Assembly: GCA_002343505.1 (NCBI GenBank)
Contig: DDQZ01000030.1
Location: forward strand, 1-20,742
Direction: 5' to 3'
DNA length: 20,742 bases
DNA from: Verrucomicrobiaceae bacterium UBA2429
GTDB lineage: Bacteria > Verrucomicrobiota > Verrucomicrobiia > Verrucomicrobiales > Verrucomicrobiaceae
In this document: piece by piece, positions 970-16,468 of the stretch
How the letters are laid out: every line of letters starts with the position of its first letter
How positions within the stretch are numbered: position 1 is the first letter of the stretch
Program-made: the position numbers and the translations under genes
Notes under the pieces: model-generated
Told to the model about the DNA's origin: nothing
What the model saw: only the letters and a program-made list of their open reading frames with translations
Database searches by the model: none

Positions 970-1794
970 TCAGGGTTCGATGTCCTTTGTGCCTTTGCAG
1001 TCAGGGTAGGCGGGGCAGCCCCAGAATTGGCGGCTGGTTTTGCCGGCGGTGCGGCGGCGCATGGGTTTGCCGCACTGGGGGCAGAGGGGGGGGCCGGCTT
1101 GCTCGGCGCGGGCTTTGACGCGGGCGGTGTGCAGGCGCTCGGTGAAGCCGCCGTGTTCTTTGAAGTCGCGGGCCTGGCTTTCAAGCTGGCGTTTGAGCAG
1201 GTAGGCGGCCTGGTTGATGGCGCAGAGCATGGCGTTTGCGGCGATCTCGGGCGCGGCTTTTTTGACGAAGTCGCTGAGGCCGGCCAGGCCGGTGAGGATG
1301 GCTTTGTTTTGATCCGCGGCGGCGGGTAGCGCGGGATAAACGTCGTGCTTGAGGCGCTCCCGCATGGCCATGCATTCGCGGGAGTCTTTGTGCCAGAGGC
1401 GGAGGCTGTTTTGCAGGAGGAAGCTCTTGTAGTCCCGGGCGAGCTCGTCGTTGAGGCTGGCGCGGGCGACGTTGGTGAGCTTCATCTCCATTTTGCGGGA
1501 GGTGGCGGCTGCACCGCTGCCTTCGGAGATGTTGCGGACGCCGCTGCGGGCGGCCTGGATCATTTGGTCGTGAGTGCGGCTTTCCTTGCTAATGAAGCGG
1601 TCACAGAAGACGACGGTGGCATCGTAGATGGCTTCTGCGACGGCGTAGCTGCGGAGGTTTTCATAGCCGCCGTGGGGGAGGAGTGGGCTGTCGGAGTCGG
1701 GCGGGTGATTTGGCGGCGGGGTCCGAGACGGGTCTGACGAGTTGGACTTGTCCGACCCGTCCGACGGCTTGGAGGAGTCGGACGAGTCTGGCAT
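970..1794 (-). CDS. Four-helix-bundle (23S rRNA intervening-sequence type) protein with suffix domain and C-terminal topoisomerase-type zinc ribbon
   Basis: This 274-residue protein has three parts. Residues 1-23 are a Ser/Asp-rich repeat encoded by 9-bp DNA repeats. Residues about 43-165 match the four-helix-bundle family first described from 23S rRNA intervening sequences, including the motif AARSGVRNISEGSGAA and alternating helices. Residues about 165-225 look like the 'suffix' helical region seen on longer family members. The C-terminus carries a zinc ribbon with Cys238, Cys241, Cys260 and Cys266 (CPQC, then WGCPAYPDC), the type found at the end of type IA topoisomerases. The molecular function of the family is not established; nucleic-acid binding by the ribbon is an inference. 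It starts 45 bp after the nrdA stop codon on the same strand, so it is probably co-transcribed. No Shine-Dalgarno sequence is present, and the repeat-encoded N-terminus makes the start uncertain. Confidence 0.82.
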   Translation of the reverse strand: MPDSSDSSKPSDGSDKSNSSDPSRTPPPNHPPDSDSPLLPHGGYENLRSYAVAEAIYDATVVFCDRFISKESRTHDQMIQAARSGVRNISEGSGAAATSRKMEMKLTNVARASLNDELARDYKSFLLQNSLRLWHKDSRECMAMRERLKHDVYPALPAAADQNKAILTGLAGLSDFVKKAAPEIAANAMLCAINQAAYLLKRQLESQARDFKEHGGFTERLHTARVKARAEQAGPPLCPQCGKPMRRRTAGKTSRQFWGCPAYPDCKGTKDIEP

Positions 1795-1839: not shown

Positions 1840-4800
1840 CTACTCGCACGCCTCGCACGTCCCGCCGTTGCGCCTGGCTTCGATGGAGCAGGCGTTTTTT
1901 TCCTCGGCGGTGTATTCGCGCTTGGCGCCGACGGCGCCGGCGATGACGCTGCTGCGGATGTCTTTCTGCACCTGGACATCGGCTTTTTCGATGTTGGAGG
2001 CGCTGACGGTGCGCAGGTAGTAGGTGGTCTTGAGGCCCTTCCGCCAGGCGCCGCGGTACATGTGGCTGAGGGTGGCGAGCTCTTTGCCGGAGAAGAAGAG
2101 GTTCACGCTCTGGCTTTGATCAATCCATTTCTGGCGGCGGGCGGCGGCATCCACGAGCCAGCTCCAGTCTATGCTGAAGGCGGTGGCGTAGCGGCGCTTG
2201 ATGTCCACGGGGATTTCCTCGATGGCGTCAATCTCGCCGTCCATGTACTTGAGCTTGTTCTGGATGTCGGCGGTCCAGAGGCCGCGCTTTTTGAGGTCGC
2301 GGATGAGGTAGGGGTTGAGCACCATGAAGTCGCCGGAGAGGTTGGACTTCACGAGCATGTTGCTCATCAAGGGCTCGATGCAGGGGGAGGAGCCCATGAT
2401 GTTGCTGATGGTGGCGGTGGGGGCGATGGCGAGGACGTTGCTGTTTCTCATGCCCTGTTTGGCGATCTTGGCGCGCAGGGCGCTCCAGTCCATTTTGCCG
2501 CCGCGGGGGACCTCGACGGGCACGCCGCGCTCTTTTTCGAGCAGCTCGAGGGTGTCCTGGGGCAGGAGGCCGCGATCCCATTTGCTGCCTTTGTAAGTGG
2601 AGTAAGTGCCCTTTTCGGCGGCGAGGTCGCTGCTGGCCTCATAGGCGTAGTAGGCGACGGCTTCCATGAATTCGTCGTTGAACTCGACGGCCTCCTTTGA
2701 GGCGAAGGGGATGCCTTTGCGGTAGAGGGCGTATTGCAGGCCCATGACGCCGAGGCCGATGGGGCGGTGGCGCATGTTGGCGGTGCGGGCGGCCTCGGTG
2801 GGGTAGAAGTTGATGTCTATGACGTTGTCGAGCATGCGCACGGCGGTGCGGATGGTCTCGCGGAGCTTGGTGTGGTCCATGCCGCCGGCGTCGTCGAGGT
2901 GGTTGTCAATGAGGACGGAGCCGAGGTTGCAGACGGCGGTCTCGTCGGCGGAGGTGTTGAGGGTGATCTCGGTGCAGAGGTTGCTGCTGTGGATGACGCC
3001 GGTGTGGTCCTGGGGGCTGCGGAGGTTGCAGGGGTCTTTGAAGGTGATCCATGGGTGGCCGGTCTCGAAGAGGGCCTTGAGCATGAGCTTCCAGAGGTCA
3101 ATGGCGGGGGTCTCTTTGCCGAAGATTTTGCCGGCTTTGGCGAGGGCCTCGTATTCCTCATAGCGCTTTTCGAAGGCGCTGCCATAGAGGTCGTGGAGGT
3201 CGGGGACTTCGTTGGCGCGGAAGAGGGTCCAGGGCTGGCGGGACTCGACGCGCTTCATGAAGAGGTCGGGGATCCAGTTGGCGGTGTTGAGGTCGTGGGT
3301 GCGGCGGCGCTCGTCGCCGGTGTTCACGCGGAGCTGGAGGAAGTCCTCGATGTCGTTGTGCCAGACTTCAAGGTAGGCGCAGCCGGAGCCGCGGCGCTTG
3401 CCGCCCTGGTTGACGGCGATGAGCTGGTCGTTGTGGAGCTTGAGGAAGGGGATGACGCCCTGGGACTCGCCGTTGGTGCCTTTGATGTAGCCGCCGGTGC
3501 CGCGGACGCTGGTCCAGGAGCCGCCGAGGCCGCCGGCCCATTTGGAGAGGAAGGCGTTTTCGGCGATGCCGCGGATCATGATGGACTCGATGCTGTCGTC
3601 CACTTTGTAGAGGTAGCAGGAGCTGAGCTGGGAGTGGTGGGTGCCGCTGTTGAAGAGGGTGGGGGTGGAGGAGCAGAAGCGGCGGCCTTTGTAGAGCTTG
3701 TAGAGGGAAATGATTTTTTCCTCGGGGCTGTCCTCCTGGACGCAGAGGCCCATGGCGACGCGCATCCAGAAGAGCTGGGGGGTTTCGAGCCGCCTGGAGG
3801 GCTTGACCTTTTTGTCCACGATGAGGTAGCGGTCGTAGAGGGTCTGGATGCCGAGGAAGTCGAAGTCGAGGTCGGCGGCGGGGTCGAGGGCGTCGGCGAG
3901 CTTGTCGAGGTCGAACTGGAGGAGGCGGGGGTTGTAGCGGTCAATCTCGATGCCGCGGGCGAGGTTGCGGCGGAAGGCGCGGCGGTGGAACTCGCGGAGC
4001 TGGTCTATGCCGTCGCGGACGATGTCCCAGCCGAGGACTTCCTCATAGATGTAGGAGAGGAGGACGCGGGCGGCGAACTTGGCGAAGTCGGCGTCCTTCT
4101 GCATGAGGGTCTTGGCGTTGAGAATGACGGTCTTTTTGAGATGGTCGAGGGTGATGTCGGAGTTCAGGGAGCGGCGCAGCTCCATCTCGATCTCGGCGCG
4201 GGTGAGGCAGAGGTCGAGGCCGAGCATGGCGAAGTCTATGCGGCGCTTGAGGTCCTGGCCGTCCCAGAGGAAGGAGCCGCCGTCGCTGGTTTTGACGACG
4301 ATGAGGGACTGCTGGTCCTGGCTTTCGATGTCGTTCTGCCCGGCAGCCTCCTGCTCCTCGGCCTCGCGCATTTTTCCGCGCAGGGCGCGGTACTGGATGT
4401 AGGAGCGGGCGACTTTGAAGTAGCCCTGCTTCATGAGCTCCTCCTCGACGAGGTTCTGAACGTCCTCGATGTGCATGAACTGCTTGTTTTCGGCGGCGAC
4501 GGCGCCGCTGACGGCCTCGGCGACCTGGACGGCGGGGGTGGAGTCAAGTTCGAGGGAGAGGAAGGCTTTGCGGACGGCGATCTCGATTTTGTTGTGGTTC
4601 CAGGGGACGAGCTGGCCGCTGCGGCGGATGACTTTGGTGTTCACGATGAGGGGCTGCGGGAGGGTGTTGTCGGCGAGGCTGTCGTATTCGGCGCGCTTGC
4701 GGCGCTCGGCGAGGGAGCGGGCGATGTCGTGGGCGCTGTGGCGCACGAGGGCGCGCTCGATGCACTGGTAGATGTCCCTGGCGGCGAAGGTGGCGCCGCC

Positions 4801-5133
4801 GTTGGCGCCGGCCTGGGCGCCGGCCTGCTGCTGGATTTCCTCGAGGACGGCGGTGAGGATGGTGAGGACGAGGCGGCGGTTTTGGTCGTTGTAAATGTCC
4901 TGGTCGTTCTGGCGGGCGAGCAGGAGGTCGGTGAGGGCGCTGCCGATGGTGTCGGCGATCTCGCCCATGTCGAAGTCACGCTCGTCTCCGCCGACTTTGA
5001 CTTTGATGGCGGTGGGAGCGGAGCCGGTGACGCCCGCGGCGATGGCGCTCCATTCGAAGCGGGGTTTCTGGTCTTTGGGGGTGTGGGCGACTTTTTTGAG
5101 GGCCTTGTCTTCGTGGAGCAGGTTCTGGAGCAT
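1840..5133 (-). CDS. nrdA: Ribonucleoside-diphosphate reductase, class I large (catalytic) subunit
   Basis: This protein reduces ribonucleoside diphosphates to deoxyribonucleotides together with NrdB. At 1097 residues it is much longer than the 761-residue E. coli enzyme because the N-terminus holds three ATP-cone-like units. Unit 1 (about 41-148) has a divergent nucleotide-binding strand, unit 2 (about 164-254, VIRRSGQLVPWNHNKIEIAV) is canonical, and unit 3 (about 276-368) aligns with the single E. coli cone. Catalytic residues are intact: Cys506 and Cys735 as the redox pair, Cys720 (NLCTE) as the thiyl-radical cysteine with Glu722, and Tyr1038-Tyr1039 for radical transfer. The C-terminal CEACE supplies the CxxC that passes electrons from glutaredoxin or thioredoxin. 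The ATG at 5131-5133 has no Shine-Dalgarno sequence but is preceded by CTCCCGCC. It lies 115 bp downstream of nrdB on the same strand. Confidence 0.97.
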   Translation of the reverse strand: MLQNLLHEDKALKKVAHTPKDQKPRFEWSAIAAGVTGSAPTAIKVKVGGDERDFDMGEIADTIGSALTDLLLARQNDQDIYNDQNRRLVLTILTAVLEEIQQQAGAQAGANGGATFAARDIYQCIERALVRHSAHDIARSLAERRKRAEYDSLADNTLPQPLIVNTKVIRRSGQLVPWNHNKIEIAVRKAFLSLELDSTPAVQVAEAVSGAVAAENKQFMHIEDVQNLVEEELMKQGYFKVARSYIQYRALRGKMREAEEQEAAGQNDIESQDQQSLIVVKTSDGGSFLWDGQDLKRRIDFAMLGLDLCLTRAEIEMELRRSLNSDITLDHLKKTVILNAKTLMQKDADFAKFAARVLLSYIYEEVLGWDIVRDGIDQLREFHRRAFRRNLARGIEIDRYNPRLLQFDLDKLADALDPAADLDFDFLGIQTLYDRYLIVDKKVKPSRRLETPQLFWMRVAMGLCVQEDSPEEKIISLYKLYKGRRFCSSTPTLFNSGTHHSQLSSCYLYKVDDSIESIMIRGIAENAFLSKWAGGLGGSWTSVRGTGGYIKGTNGESQGVIPFLKLHNDQLIAVNQGGKRRGSGCAYLEVWHNDIEDFLQLRVNTGDERRRTHDLNTANWIPDLFMKRVESRQPWTLFRANEVPDLHDLYGSAFEKRYEEYEALAKAGKIFGKETPAIDLWKLMLKALFETGHPWITFKDPCNLRSPQDHTGVIHSSNLCTEITLNTSADETAVCNLGSVLIDNHLDDAGGMDHTKLRETIRTAVRMLDNVIDINFYPTEAARTANMRHRPIGLGVMGLQYALYRKGIPFASKEAVEFNDEFMEAVAYYAYEASSDLAAEKGTYSTYKGSKWDRGLLPQDTLELLEKERGVPVEVPRGGKMDWSALRAKIAKQGMRNSNVLAIAPTATISNIMGSSPCIEPLMSNMLVKSNLSGDFMVLNPYLIRDLKKRGLWTADIQNKLKYMDGEIDAIEEIPVDIKRRYATAFSIDWSWLVDAAARRQKWIDQSQSVNLFFSGKELATLSHMYRGAWRKGLKTTYYLRTVSASNIEKADVQVQKDIRSSVIAGAVGAKREYTAEEKNACSIEARRNGGTCEACE

Positions 5134-5248: not shown

Positions 5249-6331
5249 TCAGAGATCGTCGTCGGAGGTGTGGACGAGGGCGGACGCCTTCTGGTAGTCC
5301 GTGACCTTGCCTTCGAAGAAGTTCTGCTCTTTGCGCACATCCATCATCTCGGCGAGCCAGGGCAGGGGATTCTGCACGCCGGGGTTGAGGACCTGGAGGC
5401 CGCAGCCGGCGAGGCGGCGGTCGGCGATGTAGTCAATGTAGCGCTCGAACTCCCCGGCGCTGAGGCCGACGGCGTTCACGGGCAGGCAGTCGCGGATGAA
5501 CTCTTTTTCAAGGGCGATGGCCTCGCGCATGATCTGGACGAGCTCCTCGCGGAACTCGGCGGTCCAGAGGTCGGGGTTTTCTTCGACGAGGTCCATGAAG
5601 AGGTTGCGGAAGACTTCGATGTGGTTGCTCTCGTCGCGCAGGGTGTAGCGGAACATCTGGCCGATGCCGGGGAATTTGTTCTGGCGGTAGAGGCTGAGGA
5701 TCATGCCAAAGAGTCCGTAGAACTGGGTGCCCTCCATGCACTGGCCGAAGACGAAGATGTTTTTGGCGAGGAGCTGCTTGTTTTCGAGCTTGGTGAGGTC
5801 GAGGTCGCGGCGGAGGTTGTTCGAGTGCCGGGTGACGAACTCGTTTTTCCTGACAATGGTGGGGATCTGCTCGAACATGGCCTCGCATTCATGCGGGTTG
5901 ATGCCCAGGGAGGAGATCATGTAGAGGAGGGAGTCGGCGTGGATGTTCTCCTCGTGGGCGTGGCGGCCGAGGACGAGCTTCAGCTCAGGGGCGGTGACCA
6001 GCTCGCGTACGACGTGCTGGATATTGTCCCCGACGATGCCCTCGGCGGCGCTGAAGTAGCCGATGCCCATCATGATGATCCAGCGCTCGTTCTGGGAAAT
6101 CTCGTGGCCGCGCCATTGCTCGACGTCTTTTTGCATCTGGATGTCCTCGGGCTCCCAGTGGTTGGCCTTCATGGTGCGGTAGAGGTCATAGGCCCACTGA
6201 TACTTGAGGGGAAGCAGGTTGAAGGTCATGGACTGGCGGCCATTGATGACCTTTTTTGCCGCGTAGGCTGCTTCTGCCTTGGACTGGTCGAGGGGGAACT
6301 CGCGATTGCCGATTTTGTAGATTTTTTCCAT
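5249..6331 (-). CDS. nrdB: Ribonucleoside-diphosphate reductase, class I small subunit with leucine at the radical site
   Basis: This is the ferritin-like radical-generating subunit, 360 residues from the ATG at 6329-6331. An upstream ATG would add 60 residues with no family similarity and would run through the operator region. All six dinuclear-metal ligands are identifiable: Glu97 (FSAAEG), Glu128 and His131 (HEENIH), Glu200 (CMEGTQF), and Glu234 and His237 (RDESNH). The first ligand is Glu, as in Chlamydia (Glu89), not Asp as in E. coli. The residue four after His131, where E. coli has Tyr122 and Chlamydia Phe127, is Leu135, encoded by CTC at 5927-5929. By analogy with class Ic enzymes this predicts a metal-centred oxidant such as Mn/Fe instead of a tyrosyl radical. 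The C-terminal tail TSDDDL should dock on NrdA. NrdR-like boxes lie about 85 bp upstream. Confidence 0.96.
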   Translation of the reverse strand: MEKIYKIGNREFPLDQSKAEAAYAAKKVINGRQSMTFNLLPLKYQWAYDLYRTMKANHWEPEDIQMQKDVEQWRGHEISQNERWIIMMGIGYFSAAEGIVGDNIQHVVRELVTAPELKLVLGRHAHEENIHADSLLYMISSLGINPHECEAMFEQIPTIVRKNEFVTRHSNNLRRDLDLTKLENKQLLAKNIFVFGQCMEGTQFYGLFGMILSLYRQNKFPGIGQMFRYTLRDESNHIEVFRNLFMDLVEENPDLWTAEFREELVQIMREAIALEKEFIRDCLPVNAVGLSAGEFERYIDYIADRRLAGCGLQVLNPGVQNPLPWLAEMMDVRKEQNFFEGKVTDYQKASALVHTSDDDL

Positions 6332-6415: not shown

Positions 6416-6464
6416 CCACCAGATATTGCGCGGGCCGGGGGAGATGATGCACAATATCTTGTGT
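6416..6464. promoter_or_regulatory. Two NrdR-box-like operators upstream of nrdB
   Basis: Box 2 (6449-6464) is GCACAATATCTTGTGT, with core CAATATCTTG matching 9 of 10 positions of the NrdR core CWATATATWG and forming a near-perfect palindrome. Box 1 (6416-6431) has core CCAGATATTG and matches 8 of 10. The boxes are 33 bp centre to centre, about three helical turns; known pairs are usually 31-32 bp apart. NrdR is the ATP/dATP-sensing repressor of nrd operons, so this would repress nrdB-nrdA when dATP is high. The consensus comes from memory; the match is by eye. Confidence 0.6.
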
Positions 6465-6472: not shown

Positions 6473-6540
6473 GATGTTTTTGATTCCGCAGTGGCGGGTC
6501 AGGCGTTGCACAACGCAGCTTCAAGCGTTCCACGCCAATT

Positions 6541-6741: not shown

Positions 6742-6987
6742 TCACAGGGCATTTCGCGCTTTCAAGAAAGGGATCAGTTCGTCCACGCCGAAGTCGGCCA
6801 GCACCTCGCCATCCCAGTCCATGGTGGGGGCTTTGGTTTGGCCGGAAAGGTCCGCCATTTCGCGCATGGCGGCGGCATTGCCGGAGACGACGACTTTGCG
6901 GTAGGGCAGGCGGCGCTCGTCGAGGAAGTCGAGTACCTCGTCACACCAGGGGCAGCCGGTTTTGACGTAGAGGACGGGCACGGGCAT
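6742..6987 (-). CDS. Glutaredoxin-family thiol-disulfide oxidoreductase
   Basis: This 81-residue protein is a single thioredoxin-fold domain of glutaredoxin size. It begins with strand VPVLYVKTG, followed by the active site CPWC at residues 12-15, and later has the cis-proline segment TKAPTMDWDGEVLADFG that binds the partner thiol. Glutaredoxins reduce the C-terminal CxxC of NrdA as well as other disulfides. The gene starts 18 bp after the stop codon of the MFS transporter on the same strand, so it is probably co-transcribed with it. It lies about 410 bp upstream of nrdB in the same direction, so a role as electron donor to the reductase is attractive but inferred. It could equally be a general glutaredoxin; a CPWC-type site does not decide between them. 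Confidence 0.88.
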   Translation of the reverse strand: MPVPVLYVKTGCPWCDEVLDFLDERRLPYRKVVVSGNAAAMREMADLSGQTKAPTMDWDGEVLADFGVDELIPFLKARNAL

Positions 6988-9236: not shown

Positions 9237-12200
9237 TCACCCCCGCCCTTTCTTCCGCACTCCCTTCTTCTCTGCGGAATCTGTGAAATCTGCGGATGGC
9301 TGCTGGACCCGCGAGCCGACGGACACGGGCAGCTCTTCGGCGGTCTCTTTTTCGACGGGCTGGACTTTGATCTCGACGTTCACGGGCACAGCGCGCAGGC
9401 CTTCGATGATCTTTTGCAGGCGTTCGATGGTTAGGTCGGAAAGGGTGGGGCTGGCGACGGCGCGCTCGATTTTTTCCAGGCCGACGGTGAAGGCGCTCAT
9501 CTGGCCGGTGATGCGGGTGACGGGGTCGCTCTCGCCCGCGCCGCCGGTGAGCAGGTTGCGGCCAAAAGTGCGCTTGATCTCGTCCCAGCGCGCGGCGGCG
9601 GGCTCGTCGAGCAGGCCGTTGATCTCGCGCCATTTGAGCAGGTTCGCCTCGGCGGCCTGGCTGAGGGTCTGGCTCTCGCCCCGGTAGTGGTCGGCGATGA
9701 GGGAGTCCACCTCGGCATCGGTCATGAGCGGCTGCACTTTTTCGGCGATCTTGTTCATGTTCCGGTAGCTGCCCTGGAGCTTGAAGGGCGGCTCGGTGCG
9801 GTAGGCGTCCTCCATGGCGGCGCTGCGGATGTACTCCTGGTTCACACGCAGGATGACCTCGCGCACGCGCAGCAGCTTTTCCATGACGGCCACGCAGTCG
9901 TTGATGTCCTCGGGACTTTGGTTGGCCTCGAATTCAATGCCCTCGCGGCTGCCGGTGAGGGCGATCTTCAGGCAGGCGAGCGCGTCGGCATGGCTGCGCG
10001 CGGCCACGCGGGCGAGCGCGGGATTGCTGGTGAGGGCGTTCTCGATGTAGCTGTCTTTGAAGGCTTCCTGATGGCCGCCGAGGATGTCGCCGAGGTTGTA
10101 GGTGTCGGCGCGGTTGGCGAGCATGTCGGGCACCTGGAATTTGCCGCCGACTTCGGTGTAGGGGTTGCCAGCCATGACGACGGCCACTTTGCGTCCGCGC
10201 AAGTCGTGGGTTTTTGCCACGCCCTTGAAGACGCCTTCGATGCGGCGGGTGCCATCGCAAAGCGGGATGAACTTTTGCAGGAACTCGGGATTGCAGTGCT
10301 GGATGTCGTCCAGGTAGATCATCACGTTGTCGCCCATCTCGAGGGCGAGGTTCAGGCGCTCGACTTCCTCGCGCGCGCTGGCGTTGGGTGCTTCGGCGGG
10401 GTCGAGGGAGGTGACTTTGTGGCCGAGGGCGGGGCCGTTGATCTTCACCAGCGTGATGCCGAGGCGCGCGGCCACATACTCCATGAGCGTGGTCTTGCCA
10501 TAGCCGGGCGGTGAAATGAGCAGCAGCAGGCCCATGCGGTCGGTGCGCGTGTCGGCCCCGACGGCGCCGATCTGCTTGGCGAGGTTGGCGCCGATGATGG
10601 GCAGATAGACCTGGTCAATGAGCCGATTGCGCACGAAGGAGCTGAGCACGCCGGCCTTGAACTGCTCCAGGCGCAGCTGCGCGCGGCGCTGCACGGCGGT
10701 CTCGTGCTTGAGCTGATGGAAGCGCTCGTAGTCCGGCACGACGCTCGTTTCATAATGCGCGAGGCGAGCGGTGAACTCATGGTAGTCCAGCTCCAGCGCG
10801 GACTCCTGGATGCGCGAGTGCGCTCCGGTGAATCCGGTCAAAGAGACGCGCGTGGCTGGCTCGGCAGGCGTGACGGCGGGCGGCGAATCACGCAGCACGA
10901 GCAGCGCGGCGGCCTCGGTGAGCACGCCTCCGTCGGTGCCGGGATGCAGGGCGGCGAGCCATTCGCGCGCGACGACGAAGGCGGTGACGGGCTGCGCTTC
11001 GAGTGCGGCGAGGGTTTCATCAAACTCCTTCGCGGCCATCTTGACGACGAGTTCTTTGCGGAAGGCGCGGATCAGCTCGACGGCAGCGGCGGAGCGCGTG
11101 AAAGGCAGCGCGGGATGCCGGGGGCCGAGGTGCTGGAGTTCTTCGAGAAGGCAGGCGGCGATAGCTTCGGAGCGGCTAAAGCCTGGACACCAGCTTTGCG
11201 GGCTGGCGCTGGCGAGCTGCTGCAAAATGGCCTCGATCCTGGCGGCGGGAGAGTCTTGCACATCCGCGCCGCTGATGCCGAGAAGCTCGCGCATTATGCC
11301 CTTCGATCTCATGCGCGCGGCGAGGGCTTTTTTCTCCTCGTCCTCCGGCCATGCGTGCCAGAAAAGCAGCGCGAGTCCGCGCGCGGCGGGTGCGTGGCGC
11401 AAAGGGCCGAGCGCTTTTTCCATGGCGCGCAGCGGCTCCAGAATGAGCGCGGCATCGTGGTCATGCACGCCCTTGGTGTAGCCCTCATGATAACGCTGCG
11501 CCATGAAGGCGGGCACATCCACGGCTGCATCGGGCGCGTGGCTTTTGTGAAGCTGCCAGGCGAGGTATTCAGCGCGATAGACTTGCGCGTTTTCCGAGAC
11601 GGAGGTCTGCTCCCAGACGTGGCGCAGCTCATCAAGGCGCGGATCGGCGACCTCCTCGAAGTAGCGCGTGCCGGTGAGGTGGAAGACAAGCTTCCCCTCG
11701 CGCGGCAGCAGGGTCAGCTCAAGCTGCTGGCGGTTGAAGCTGAACTTGTGCCGCCCGAGCTGGATGACATCGCCACCTTCCGCGTAGAGGTCGGCCTTGT
11801 CACGGATCTGCTTGAGCGAGTCCTGCTGAAGGGTCTTCAGCTTGGTCTGGAGATCATCGGCGCGGACGCTGTCGCCGAGTTTGCGCAGTTCCTCGATGAG
11901 GTCGCGCAGCTTGGCCACCATGGCATCGCCGGCAATCCAGGCGTGAACTTCCTCCGGCTTGGCAAAGGCGGCGAGGCGGTTGCGCACGCTGGCGAGGATG
12001 CGCTCCGCCGACTGGCCGAGGGACTGGCAGCGGCGGTTCAGCGCGTCCACGAGCGACTGGCGGCGCGCTTCGAAGGCGGTCTGAATTTCCTCGCGCTTGA
12101 GGGTGAGCTCGGCGGCGTAGTCGTCGAAGTCGGAGAAGCGGCTCTCCATTTCCTCGAGCTGCACCATGACGCGCGTGAGGGACTCGTCACACTTCTCCGG

Positions 12201-14333
12201 CGTGGTGGCGACTTCGAGGTAGTTTAGCACGCTCTGGCCGAGCAGGCTGAGCTGAGCGTGGAACTGTGCCGCGCCCTCGGCCTTGGCCAGATCATTGCGG
12301 CGGTTGCGCAGGACGCTGCGCACCTGGTTGAGCTGGGCAAAGAGCGCGGAGATGTGCTCAATGATGCGCGTGGTCTCGGTGGCGTCCTCGATCTTCAGGC
12401 CGCTGACGATCTCGGTGAGCATCTCCAGCTCGGTGCTGGACTGCGCGAGGGCCTGCTCCACCTCGGTGGCCTCCAGCACTTTCGCGAGGCTCGGCACGCG
12501 CGCCTGCTGTTCGCTGATCTGGCGGCGGTAGGGATCGAGCGCCTCTTCGCGCAAAAGGAAGGCCACGCACTTCTGTGAGAGCTTGTCCGCCGCCTCGGCC
12601 ACGCCGCTGTCCATGCGCGCCACCTCGTCGGCATCCACATAGCGCACGTCCTTCAAGGCGATGATCTGCCCGCGCAGCTCGCGCAGGGCGGAGAGCAGGT
12701 GGACAAAGCCGAGAATATCCGCGGGGTCGCCATGCGTGGAGGCGGCGATGCTTTTCGCGGCTTTCTTCTGGAGCGCGGCGGTCTGCTCGGCGGCGTTTTT
12801 GCGCATCCGGCTGACTTTTTCAAACTCGCCCAGCGCGGCCTCGGCGGTGCTCTTGATCTCGGACAGGATGCTCTTGAGATCGTGTGCCTCCTCCTTGCCT
12901 ATCCAAAAGTAGCTGTCTGTGATGTCGCCCGAGGAGCGTGCCAGCTCGACATAGAGGCCGGAGAAGGAGTCGTCCTTGGCCAGCAGGTTGAGAATGCCGT
13001 GGCACTCGGCCATGGCGCGGACGATTTCGGCATTGCCGATCTTGCCGAGGAAGCTCTGGCTCTGCGCATGCGGCGCGGCATCGGCGGTGATGAAAGGCGT
13101 GCGCCAGGACTGGACGACATGGTGCTTGCGCGGCTCGTCATCAGCCTGAAAGAGCACCAGCTCGCCCGAGGGGAAGAGGCTGTAGCCCTGGCAGGTGATG
13201 GGCGTGGCGATGCTCTGCGTGATGAGGTTGTAGGCCAGCAGCAGGTAGTGGCCGCTTTCGAGATCGGTGAAGACAAAGAGCGTGTCCTCGCCATTGGCGG
13301 CGGTGACGCGGCGCTCGAAGCGCATGGGCGGCAGGCCGGTGTCGAAGCGCTTCACCTCGCCCGTTTGCAGCACATAGCCGTGCGGGAAGATGATGCCGTG
13401 GCCGTCCGGCAGCAGAACGCAGGATTGCTCGATGCTGTCCACGCGGTGCGCCTCGCGGGTGCGCTCGTTGAAGACGAGATGCCGCCACGTTTTCTCCTGG
13501 TAGGGCAGCACTTTGAGCAGGATGAGATTGCCGACGATGGCGTAGTGGACCTCGGCGTCGTCGAGCGTCTGGTCGGCATTGTCCACCGGCTCGCTGTAGA
13601 TGCCTCTGCCGGAGTCGGTGTTGTTTTCCACCTTCACCGTGAGGTCGCCGCCGATGGTCTCGACAAAAACGCGGTCCTCAATGCTGATGTGCGGATGCGC
13701 GCCGTAGCGGTACATGTCCCGCCGCGCGCGCTTCCACTCGAACTCCTGCGTCGGCGGAAAGACAAACTCGTGGTCGGAGCGGTTGCCGAGATACTTGAGC
13801 GTGCCCGCCTCGTCATTGACCATCCATTTGAAGGTCTTCACCTCCGCCGCGCCGCGCCCGACGGACATGCCCATGTAGAGGTGCGGGCCGATGCGGTGGA
13901 ACTTCAGAAAGGAGGCGTTCTTGTAGTAGCCGTAGAGGTAGGCGAAGTCCTCGACGAACTGCGGATCGGAGAGCAGCCCGTCCTTGATGGGATGGAAGCT
14001 GTGGTCCTCGGGATTGTAGTCGTAGCCCGCGAAGACATCCTCCACATGCATCTGCGAGCGCAGGCCGAGGTGGACATTGTAGCCGAACAAAAAGCGCCGC
14101 GGGCCGATGGCCGTCATGTCGCGCGGCACGCAGTTGTTGTCCGTGGTCAGGCGCGTGGTGGCCAGCAGCGCGGTGTCAATGCCGCCGAACTCGGCTTTGC
14201 GGTCGTTGTTCAGCAAATCCAGCCGCCTTTGCAGCTCCGCCCCATGCTTGTCCAGCCGCTGCCGGATCACCTCGTAAGCACCGGCTTCGAGCTGGGGAGA
14301 GGCGGCCTGGGGGGATGGAGTTGGTTCAGCCAT
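9237..14333 (-). CDS. Giant AAA+ ATPase of the DUF3686 ('DNA repair ATPase') type, partner of the flotillin operon
   Basis: This 1698-residue protein has a beta-rich N-terminal region (about 60-450, resembling DUF3686, with repeated strand pairs that suggest a propeller), a long helical and coiled-coil region (about 480-845), a short beta segment (850-890), further helices, and a AAA+ module. The AAA+ motifs are Walker A SPPGYGKT with Lys1280, Walker B YLDD with Asp1342-Asp1343, sensor 1 Asn1390 in MAGNP, and an arginine-finger candidate in NRADTYNLGD. All catalytic residues appear intact. The family name 'DNA repair ATPase' is a database label; nothing in the sequence shows a repair role. 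The gene starts 59 bp after the flotillin stop codon, on the same strand, which suggests a remodelling motor acting on a flotillin-YqiJ membrane assembly. The last 20 or so residues are derived from a short DNA repeat. Confidence 0.88.
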   Translation of the reverse strand: MAEPTPSPQAASPQLEAGAYEVIRQRLDKHGAELQRRLDLLNNDRKAEFGGIDTALLATTRLTTDNNCVPRDMTAIGPRRFLFGYNVHLGLRSQMHVEDVFAGYDYNPEDHSFHPIKDGLLSDPQFVEDFAYLYGYYKNASFLKFHRIGPHLYMGMSVGRGAAEVKTFKWMVNDEAGTLKYLGNRSDHEFVFPPTQEFEWKRARRDMYRYGAHPHISIEDRVFVETIGGDLTVKVENNTDSGRGIYSEPVDNADQTLDDAEVHYAIVGNLILLKVLPYQEKTWRHLVFNERTREAHRVDSIEQSCVLLPDGHGIIFPHGYVLQTGEVKRFDTGLPPMRFERRVTAANGEDTLFVFTDLESGHYLLLAYNLITQSIATPITCQGYSLFPSGELVLFQADDEPRKHHVVQSWRTPFITADAAPHAQSQSFLGKIGNAEIVRAMAECHGILNLLAKDDSFSGLYVELARSSGDITDSYFWIGKEEAHDLKSILSEIKSTAEAALGEFEKVSRMRKNAAEQTAALQKKAAKSIAASTHGDPADILGFVHLLSALRELRGQIIALKDVRYVDADEVARMDSGVAEAADKLSQKCVAFLLREEALDPYRRQISEQQARVPSLAKVLEATEVEQALAQSSTELEMLTEIVSGLKIEDATETTRIIEHISALFAQLNQVRSVLRNRRNDLAKAEGAAQFHAQLSLLGQSVLNYLEVATTPEKCDESLTRVMVQLEEMESRFSDFDDYAAELTLKREEIQTAFEARRQSLVDALNRRCQSLGQSAERILASVRNRLAAFAKPEEVHAWIAGDAMVAKLRDLIEELRKLGDSVRADDLQTKLKTLQQDSLKQIRDKADLYAEGGDVIQLGRHKFSFNRQQLELTLLPREGKLVFHLTGTRYFEEVADPRLDELRHVWEQTSVSENAQVYRAEYLAWQLHKSHAPDAAVDVPAFMAQRYHEGYTKGVHDHDAALILEPLRAMEKALGPLRHAPAARGLALLFWHAWPEDEEKKALAARMRSKGIMRELLGISGADVQDSPAARIEAILQQLASASPQSWCPGFSRSEAIAACLLEELQHLGPRHPALPFTRSAAAVELIRAFRKELVVKMAAKEFDETLAALEAQPVTAFVVAREWLAALHPGTDGGVLTEAAALLVLRDSPPAVTPAEPATRVSLTGFTGAHSRIQESALELDYHEFTARLAHYETSVVPDYERFHQLKHETAVQRRAQLRLEQFKAGVLSSFVRNRLIDQVYLPIIGANLAKQIGAVGADTRTDRMGLLLLISPPGYGKTTLMEYVAARLGITLVKINGPALGHKVTSLDPAEAPNASAREEVERLNLALEMGDNVMIYLDDIQHCNPEFLQKFIPLCDGTRRIEGVFKGVAKTHDLRGRKVAVVMAGNPYTEVGGKFQVPDMLANRADTYNLGDILGGHQEAFKDSYIENALTSNPALARVAARSHADALACLKIALTGSREGIEFEANQSPEDINDCVAVMEKLLRVREVILRVNQEYIRSAAMEDAYRTEPPFKLQGSYRNMNKIAEKVQPLMTDAEVDSLIADHYRGESQTLSQAAEANLLKWREINGLLDEPAAARWDEIKRTFGRNLLTGGAGESDPVTRITGQMSAFTVGLEKIERAVASPTLSDLTIERLQKIIEGLRAVPVNVEIKVQPVEKETAEELPVSVGSRVQQPSADFTDSAEKKGVRKKGRG
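9271..9297. repeat. 9-bp tandem repeat (TCTGYGRAA) inside the 3' end of the giant ATPase gene
   Basis: Three units in a row, TCTGCGGAA, TCTGTGAAA and TCTGCGGAT, start at 9271, 9280 and 9289. On the coding strand they translate within SADFTDSAEKK near residues 1679-1688. The flanking 12-mer CCGCAGAGAAGA (minus strand) also occurs in the intergenic repeat at 889-900. Confidence 0.7.
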
Positions 14334-14392: not shown

Positions 14393-16468
14393 TCACTTCT
14401 TCGCCTTGCCCGTGAGCAACGCGCCGACGCTTTGCTCGGCGAGGCCGAAGCGGGTGGCGGCGCCGATCATGCCGGTGAGCTTGTTCAGCGTTTCGGCGTC
14501 GGGGTTGAGGCCGATGAGCTTGGCGAAGAGGCCGGAAAGGGTGAGGTTTTTAATATCCTCGGCGGTGAGGCCAAACTGGTCCACGAGGGTCTTCAACTGC
14601 GCTTTGAAGTAGTCCGGGTCGCCATTGAAGAAGGTCTCCTTCACATCGCTGAGCGTGCGGCTGCCTTCGACGAGGCGGTCCACGGCGCGGGCGTTGCCGA
14701 TGGCGCTGGTGATCTTGTCGAAGAACTGGCTCTCGCCGCCGACGATCTCGATCTTGGCGGATTTCATCGCCTCGCCAAGCACGCCAGCCTGGGCTTCGGC
14801 GATGTCTTTCTGGATGTGGATCTGGGCGAGCTCGACGGACTTCTCCTTGTCGAGCGTGAGCTTGAACTCCTCGTGCTCGCGTCCGGCGTCTTCGAGCAGC
14901 TTCATGGCCTGGGCTTTCTTGGTGATGCCGTCGGCTTCGGCGGCGAGCTTGAGCTGAAGCACCTCGGCATCCACATGGCCCTGCTTCTGCGCGGCCTCGG
15001 CCTTGGCAAGAAGAACCTGGGCCTCGCCGAGTCCGGGCGCGGCGGTCTTGGCGGCGACGGCTTCGGCGAGCGCTTTTTCGGCGGCGGCTTCGCGTGCGGC
15101 AGCTTCTTGCTTGGCTTCGGCCAGGGTGAGCATTTCCTGGGCACGGAGCTGGGCGGCCTCCTTGGCGGCATCGGCTTCCTTGACCGTGGTAAAGGCGTCC
15201 TGCTCGGCGGCAAGGCGGGCGGCTTCCTTCGCGGCCTCTGCTTCCTTGATCTTTTGGATGAGCTGCTCCTGGGCGGCTTTTTCGGCCAGGGTCAGAGCCA
15301 CCTGCTTCTCGCGGTCGGCGGTGGCGAAGGCCTCGGTGTCTTTGATCTTCTGCTGCTCGACGACGACGGTCTTCTCCAGCGCCACACGCTCTTTGATGAC
15401 CTCCTGGATGTTTCTCTTCTCGACTTCGACAGCCTTCTCTTTTTCGATGTCCTTCAGTGTGGTCACGCGCTCGCGCTCGATGATCTCCAGGTCGCGGTCG
15501 CGGGTGACGCGCTCGACTTCGACGGCGTCCGTGCGCTCCTTGCTGCGCTGGGCCACGAGCACCTGGCGCTCCATGTTTTCGTTGGCGATGGCGATCTCCT
15601 CATCGGCGGCGATCTTGGCGCGCTCGGCCTTCAGGCGCTCCTCAGCCTGCACTTTGAGTGTCTCCGCTTCTTCACGGGCTTTAACGCTTTCCACGTCACG
15701 CTTCTGCTTGGCCTCGGTCTCGGCGAGCTGGCGCTCAAGTTCGAGGATGGCCTCGCGGGCCTGCACGTCCTGCTGCTTGATGACCTTTTCCTTGTCGCGC
15801 TGGATGTGGTTGGCGAGCTTGGCCTGGGTGGCGGTGAGCTCGGTGATTTTTTTGATGCCCTCGGAGTCGAGGATGTTCTGCGGATCAAGGTTTTCGAGCT
15901 GGGTCTGCTCCAGGAAGTCAATGGCGCAGTCGTCGAGGGTGAAGCCGTTGAGGTCGGTGCCGATGACCTTGAGGATCTCGTTCTTGAAGTGGTCGCGCTC
16001 ATTATAGAGCTGGACGAACTCGAAGCGCTTGCCCACGGTTTTGAGAGCCTCGGAGAATTTGGCGTCGAACAAGGTGCGCATGGTGTCCACACTCGACGCG
16101 CGCTGGCATCCGATGCTCTGGGCCACACGCAGCACGTCCTCGTTGGTCTTGTTCACACGGACGAAAAAGGCCACCTTGATGTCAGCGCGCATGTTGTCCT
16201 TGCAGATCAGCCCTTCCGGCCCGCGGCGCTCGATCTCCACGCGCTTGACGGAGATGTCCATGTACTCGGCATGATGCGCGATGGGGATGACGAGCATGCC
16301 GTTGAAGGAGACCTTGGTTCCGCCGATGCCGTTGCGCACGATGGCCTGGCCTTGATGCACCTTCCGGTAGAAACGCGAGATGAGGATGATGACGCCGGCG
16401 ATGAGGCCGACAATGCCGCCGATGACCGGCAGGCCGAGGAGTTCGATGATGGCGATGGGTGTGTGCAT
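14393..16468 (-). CDS. Flotillin-like SPFH-domain membrane protein, YqiK type
   Basis: This 691-residue protein belongs to the flotillin/band-7 (SPFH) group, which forms membrane-attached cages or scaffolds. A transmembrane segment at residues about 10-33 is followed by the SPFH domain (about 38-200, starting FYRKVHQGQAIVRNGIGGTKVSFNG), a very long charged coiled coil (about 200-550, rich in Glu, Lys, Ala and Arg), and a C-terminal region with GGESQFFDKITSAIGNA, as in YqiK proteins. It is longer than E. coli YqiK (about 553 residues), mostly through the coiled coil and tail. Its start is 42 bp after the YqiJ-like gene's stop codon and its stop 59 bp before the giant ATPase start. This reproduces the yqiJ-yqiK pairing of E. 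coli. CTCCCGCC abuts the ATG; no Shine-Dalgarno sequence is seen. Confidence 0.93.
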   Translation of the reverse strand: MHTPIAIIELLGLPVIGGIVGLIAGVIILISRFYRKVHQGQAIVRNGIGGTKVSFNGMLVIPIAHHAEYMDISVKRVEIERRGPEGLICKDNMRADIKVAFFVRVNKTNEDVLRVAQSIGCQRASSVDTMRTLFDAKFSEALKTVGKRFEFVQLYNERDHFKNEILKVIGTDLNGFTLDDCAIDFLEQTQLENLDPQNILDSEGIKKITELTATQAKLANHIQRDKEKVIKQQDVQAREAILELERQLAETEAKQKRDVESVKAREEAETLKVQAEERLKAERAKIAADEEIAIANENMERQVLVAQRSKERTDAVEVERVTRDRDLEIIERERVTTLKDIEKEKAVEVEKRNIQEVIKERVALEKTVVVEQQKIKDTEAFATADREKQVALTLAEKAAQEQLIQKIKEAEAAKEAARLAAEQDAFTTVKEADAAKEAAQLRAQEMLTLAEAKQEAAAREAAAEKALAEAVAAKTAAPGLGEAQVLLAKAEAAQKQGHVDAEVLQLKLAAEADGITKKAQAMKLLEDAGREHEEFKLTLDKEKSVELAQIHIQKDIAEAQAGVLGEAMKSAKIEIVGGESQFFDKITSAIGNARAVDRLVEGSRTLSDVKETFFNGDPDYFKAQLKTLVDQFGLTAEDIKNLTLSGLFAKLIGLNPDAETLNKLTGMIGAATRFGLAEQSVGALLTGKAKK

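Follow-up and report, generated by a model that had tools for sequence, protein, structure and literature searches.

Leucine at the radical-tyrosine position of a Verrucomicrobiaceae ribonucleotide reductase small subunit points to a class Ic enzyme of the NrdB-Leu type

How might the small, radical-generating subunit of a class I ribonucleotide reductase (RNR) operate when a leucine stands at the position of its radical tyrosine? The question is raised by nrdB of Verrucomicrobiaceae bacterium UBA2429, which lies on a 20,742-nucleotide stretch of DNA (contig DDQZ01000030.1; hereafter the window). The best PDB match of its product by phmmer is 1syy (1.8e-76), and the protein scores above the cut-off of NCBIfam NF005550. 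We place the start at the ATG at 6331, as in relatives judged by protein length; the open frame extends to a GTG at 6511. The ligands and Leu135 were located by codon map, and Leu135 and the tyrosines discussed below by alignment:

5249–6331, minus strand: nrdB, class I RNR small (radical-generating) subunit, 360 aa (PF00268, 8.9e-69)
6041–6043, minus strand: Glu97, ligand 1
5948–5950, minus strand: Glu128, ligand 2
5939–5941, minus strand: His131, ligand 3
5927–5929, minus strand: Leu135 (codon CTC), radical-tyrosine position
5921–5923, minus strand: Tyr137, aligned to Chlamydia Tyr129; varies within the Leu clade
5732–5734, minus strand: Glu200, ligand 4
5645–5647, minus strand: Tyr229, aligned to Chlamydia Tyr222, which we take to be an activation relay residue
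5642–5644, minus strand: Thr230, third residue of the tyrosyl pocket
5630–5632, minus strand: Glu234, ligand 5
5621–5623, minus strand: His237, ligand 6
5294–5296, minus strand: Tyr346, aligned to C-terminal Tyr338 of Chlamydia R2c

A preliminary description of the locus had placed Leu135 four residues past ligand His131, in the column of Chlamydia Phe127, and had reported all six ligands with glutamate as the first; translation, codon map and alignment bear out each of these points. It had also proposed an alignment to structurally characterised R2 proteins as a check. In the phmmer alignment to solved R2 chains, L135 falls on F127 of Chlamydia trachomatis R2, the engineered F127Y chain 2ani shows a tyrosine in this column, and no tyrosine of NrdB is aligned to it. 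The predicted model also has an N-terminal beta-hairpin (residues 1–15; 6287–6331, minus strand) with strands at residues 2–7 and 10–15, preceding the R2 fold.

The residues around the metal site fit the published pattern of the NrdBzc group at all eight first- and second-sphere positions (Tables 3 and 4, PMC6370689). The first sphere reads E, E, H, E, E, H, and the second sphere has E127 just before ligand 2 and D233 just before ligand 5 (Table 4, PMC6370689). Furthermore, Leu135 agrees with the requirement of this group for Phe, Leu or Val at the radical-tyrosine position (PMC6370689, PMC2795772). Other groups fit less well: Leu135 is incompatible with subclass Ia, which is recognised by the radical tyrosine, and together with Glu127 it is incompatible with subclass Id (NrdBi), which keeps the tyrosine and has Cys or Ser before ligand 2 (PMC6370689); Glu127 likewise departs from the Asp of the proposed Cyano SP subclass (PMC6370689). 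The nearest solved structures, both by sequence and by predicted fold, are those of Chlamydia R2c, and alignment to this protein together with the row comparison described below indicates that the radical-relay residues are retained. A class Ic-like assignment is thus well supported at the level of sequence.

Leu135 is no artefact of sequencing. In 121 of 121 close proteins (the query and the 120 matches listed; relatives 84–93% identical) and in all 120 listed matches of a second, L060-like type that is ~54% identical to the query, it is found alongside the complete ligand set. Phe occupies the site in all 120 Phe-type matches listed, one of which has Asp rather than Glu at ligand 5. These three lists are narrow samples, the best 120 of 4399, 7258 and 7998 matches, respectively. 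Among named genome loci (the best 80 of at least 579) the site residue is Leu in 61, Phe in 10 and Tyr in 9, and among 288 Verrucomicrobiota genomes 90 had an R2 match, with 63 Leu, 11 Phe and 18 Tyr in the 92 frames read from their loci. By name, Leu-type rows also come from a complete isolate genome of Rhodothermota (L055) and from three metagenome bins, whose phylum labels may be unsure: L053 (Bacteroidota), L020 (Armatimonadota) and L050 (Actinomycetota). A divergent Leu type (L058, L060, L061, L062 and L142), ~50–56% identical to the query, has the motif AEESIHMDSLLH with His at the Tyr137 position; this His is found in 120 of 120 listed L060-type matches, three of them with ESVH.

We then compared residues of the radical pocket across 182 rows (the query, 3 PDB chains, 80 named loci, 7 plasmid or phage loci and 91 genome frames, with the copy from the query's own genome excluded). 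The rows are related, some species possibly being counted as both named and genome entries, and they are not independent because the site residue needs just three changes on the 65-row tree described below. Ligand 1 follows the site residue with zero exceptions: Glu accompanies Leu (124 rows) or Phe (25), and Asp accompanies Tyr (33). The link between Glu at ligand 1 and the class Ic type is known (PMC3824934, PMC6370689). Position 230, four residues before ligand 5, behaves similarly, with Thr in 124/124 Leu rows, Ile in 25/25 Phe rows, and Ile (28/33) or Ser (5/33) in the Tyr rows. This position is equivalent to yeast Ile269 which, with the Phe residues four and eight positions after ligand 4, makes up the three pocket residues around the tyrosyl radical (PMC3824934); both of these, F204 and F208, are retained in NrdB. 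What appears new here is that Thr accompanies Leu in every Leu-type row examined, a companion that goes unmentioned in the passages on these proteins in PMC2795772, PMC6370689 and PMC3824934. Near the ligands, Thr230, Gln203 and Asn236 set the Leu types off from both the Phe types and the proteobacterial Tyr types, differences that could tune a different metal set. Because further columns also separate the Leu clade, Thr230 may instead reflect clade history and not a functional partnership with Leu135.

To place these types in an R2 phylogeny, as the preliminary description had suggested, we built two trees, both with site columns 97, 135, 137, 229 and 230 masked. In a quick tree of 76 rows, selected from the 182 on identity and length, three Tyr rows with long branches fell next to the Leu clade; a careful tree kept 65 rows after removal of eleven long-branch, distant or partial ones. 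In the latter, the Leu types form a single clade (bootstrap 100, SH-aLRT 97), separate from the Chlamydia type and sister to the Phe types plus proteobacterial Tyr types (92/84, with a program warning of long branches meeting). In the best tree, no clade unites the Leu types with the Chlamydia Phe types while leaving out Tyr enzymes. In clade tests set after the trees had been viewed, the Phe types as one clade were weakly rejected (p-AU 0.031), and Phe plus Leu as one clade was not (p-AU 0.465); a single loss of the tyrosine with later regain and separate losses are therefore both compatible with the data. Since the best tree keeps the Leu clade apart from the Chlamydia Phe clade, the Mn/Fe chemistry that we propose for the Leu type is carried over from a sister lineage. 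An independent loss of the tyrosine in the Leu-type R2s of Verrucomicrobiota, separate from that in the Chlamydia type and giving a second tyrosine-free solution with paired Tyr-to-Leu and Ile-to-Thr changes in the radical pocket and a differently tuned, possibly non-Mn/Fe centre, is in our view a tentative and rather unlikely reading.

The genomic setting bears on whether this enzyme is used. The nrdA gene follows nrdB in the window, and two NrdR-box-like sites, scored against what we take to be the NrdR-box consensus, precede nrdB:

1840–5133, minus strand: nrdA, class I RNR large subunit, 1097 aa (Pfam; NF005544 above cut-off)
6449–6464, minus strand: NrdR-box-like palindrome ACACAAGATATTGTGC, 14 of 16, 118–133 bases before the nrdB start
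6416–6431, minus strand: second, weaker NrdR-box-like site GCGCAATATCTGGTGG, 11 of 16, 33 bases on from the first

NrdA has one ATP-cone above the Pfam cut-off (residues 167–253) and carries the cysteine motifs of the catalytic site, a YY pair and a C-terminal CEAC, the roles of which are presumed here. The same order, nrdB then nrdA, is found in 52 of the 61 named Leu loci (from the best 80 of at least 579 loci); five of the other nine have fewer than 3500 bases past the nrdB start, and four longer ones are without an nrdA match. An NrdR-box score of at least 13 is reached in 12/39 Leu loci (from the 61, those whose match includes the N terminus and that have 400 bases upstream; L050 qualified too but was omitted by oversight) versus 1/780 letter-shuffled stretches, the remaining 27 loci scoring 7 to 12. 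An ATP-cone also occurs in a separate frame at C92, which is probably NrdR.

The genome of UBA2429, which is 90% complete so that a second RNR could be missing from it, has one PF00268, one PF02867 and zero PF13597 matches; RNRs were sought by Pfam models, and one falling beyond the two models would escape. In 20 of 26 relatives chosen from the carriers, there is exactly one large subunit and the class III enzyme is absent. The exceptions have two large subunits (G186, G047 and G116), NRDD (G207) or both (G128 and G172). Among the 13 single-contig genomes of this set, the RNR stands alone in 12 (exception G186), each of these 12 having one R2 match, read as Leu type. Because no other RNR was found in its own genome or in these 12, this RNR very probably works in the cell without a radical tyrosine, and since it is the only RNR found in 20 of the 26 relatives, tyrosine-free chemistry would be no spare in those genomes. 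At the level of sequence, then, the residue pattern is accompanied by pairing with nrdA, NrdR-box-like sites and a sole RNR. In G116 (locus L135) and G207 (locus L137), genomes of the same class with family code f5 and genus code g28, a second R2 lies in tandem between the usual R2 and nrdA; its six ligands are intact, but Asn stands in place of Tyr229 (Chlamydia Tyr222) and His in place of Tyr137, as would suit a helper subunit.

Upstream of nrdB (6742–6987, minus strand), the window encodes a small glutaredoxin-like protein with CPWC, above the Pfam glutaredoxin cut-off and below those of NCBIfam. None of the 80 named loci (the best 80 of at least 579) yielded a relative, and we therefore do not claim it as a member of the operon. 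Elsewhere, the window holds a tandem array at 23–154 (42-base unit, 3.1 copies, 95% match) within a frame of repeated FVWCKLPLFWTKLP-like stretches; a gene at 970–1794 (minus strand) joining a 23S rRNA intervening-sequence domain (weak, below cut-off) to a topoisomerase-type zinc ribbon; a gene at 9237–14333 (minus strand) for a protein of 1698 aa that combines DUF3686 with an AAA ATPase domain; and beside it, at 14393–16468 (minus strand), a 691-aa frame without a Pfam match, for which a flotillin-like label is a guess.

Taken together, we consider it likely that nrdB encodes the R2 of a subclass Ic (NrdBz, 'NrdB-Leu' type) RNR with a metal-centred oxidant, very probably Mn/Fe. We infer the metals, their oxidation states and the electron route as follows. 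The di-metal site would very probably hold Mn in site 1 and Fe in site 2, and O2 or peroxide would oxidise it to a high-valent state. The oxidising equivalent would be held by the metal centre itself and not by a tyrosyl radical, and would pass down the usual relay, through W59/D233 to Tyr346, on to the YY pair of NrdA and finally to the catalytic cysteine. Leu135 would take up the room left by the tyrosine, next to a co-substituted Thr230. The preliminary description had reached a class Ic-like reading, with which the NrdBzc pattern, fold, relay and sole RNR found agree; its further claim of insensitivity to radical scavengers goes too far, because class Ic enzymes are inactivated by hydroxyurea (PMC8463856). 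This compound reduces their cofactor in two phases, a fast one via a pathway tyrosyl radical in the engaged half and a slow direct one (PMC8463856), although the Mn/Fe state has been proposed to be less sensitive to some scavengers such as nitric oxide (PMC4118035).

The metal set is where an alternative carries most weight. The literature searched, which lacks most subscription journals, yielded no Leu-type R2 whose metals had been measured, and up to 2014 Mn/Fe had not been demonstrated in vivo for any R2c (PMC4118035). This, the separate Leu clade and its residues Thr230, Gln203 and Asn236 would suit a tyrosine-free, metal-centred enzyme with Mn/Mn, as in class Id, or Fe/Fe in place of class Ic chemistry. 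However, the second-sphere Glu127 is that of NrdBzc and not the Cys or Ser of class Id, which moreover retains its tyrosine (PMC6370689), and both sequence and fold are nearer to Chlamydia R2c than to class Id; we regard this reading as improbable. It is less probable still that Tyr137 serves as the radical site. It lies only two residues away and is Tyr in 117/124 Leu-type and 25/25 Phe-type rows, but it cannot be a replacement because many Tyr-type enzymes have it too (20/33 rows); moreover, the L060 type has His there, 2/121 close proteins with intact ligands have His or Phe, and we reject this reading.

We find it scarcely credible that NrdB is an inactive paralogue or an R2-like ligand-binding oxidase (R2lox) rather than an RNR subunit. 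R2lox likewise lacks the tyrosine and has Glu as its first ligand (PMC3824934), but it is recognised by Ala and Tyr four and eight residues after ligand 4 and by Tyr four before it (PMC3824934), where NrdB has F204, F208 and G196. NrdB also scores far under the cut-offs of the R2lox NCBIfam models, retains C-terminal Tyr346, and is the sole R2 found in its genome, beside nrdA; both readings were therefore rejected. Recent import from a phage was set aside as well: the IMG/VR scan, whose reach is limited to close relatives, yielded none. Of the phage records, all 2474 with a match are <60% identical (38.9% for the top-ranked one).

The lineage appears to make its DNA precursors with an enzyme incapable of forming the classical tyrosyl radical. 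The Leu type is common in Verrucomicrobiota, with no characterised example in the literature searched, and it is a useful subtype, one that would reveal whether an aromatic side chain at the site is a requirement of class Ic chemistry and whether there was one loss of the tyrosine or several.

Leucine at the radical site is a known variation that already has a name. RNRdb in 2009 called tyrosine-free Mn/Fe proteins NrdB-Phe or NrdB-Leu (PMC2795772), NrdBzc is defined by Phe, Leu or Val (PMC6370689), a preprint treats Phe or Leu as consistent with subclass Ic (PMC12918982), and Leu, Ile and Val in R2c proteins are credited to Hogbom 2010 (PMC3824934); subclass Ic has also been described through Tyr-to-Phe alone (PMC3019208). 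Because NrdB-Leu/NrdBzc was already in RNRdb in 2009 and in PMC6370689, NrdB is a member of a named kind, an ordinary Verrucomicrobiota class Ic RNR and a largely expected example. Compared to Chlamydia trachomatis R2c (PDB 1syy, 4d8f, 4m1i), to which it is ~37% identical, NrdB belongs to a separate clade and has Leu and Thr in place of Phe at the site and Ile in the pocket. The proteobacterial NrdBz-like Tyr R2s (e.g. L071, L072, L075–L081) are 38–40% identical and share the second-sphere Glu, but have Asp as first ligand and Tyr at the site where NrdB has Glu and Leu. The subclass Ic-like R2s of marine viruses, whose large subunits are nearest NrdAz, are also tyrosine-free, with Ile or Val at the site instead of Leu (PMC12918982). 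In contrast, the NrdBzc/'NrdB-Leu' proteins of the RNRdb NrdBz group share both the Leu and the full residue pattern with NrdB, and no tested feature distinguishes it from them as they are defined in PMC2795772 and PMC6370689.
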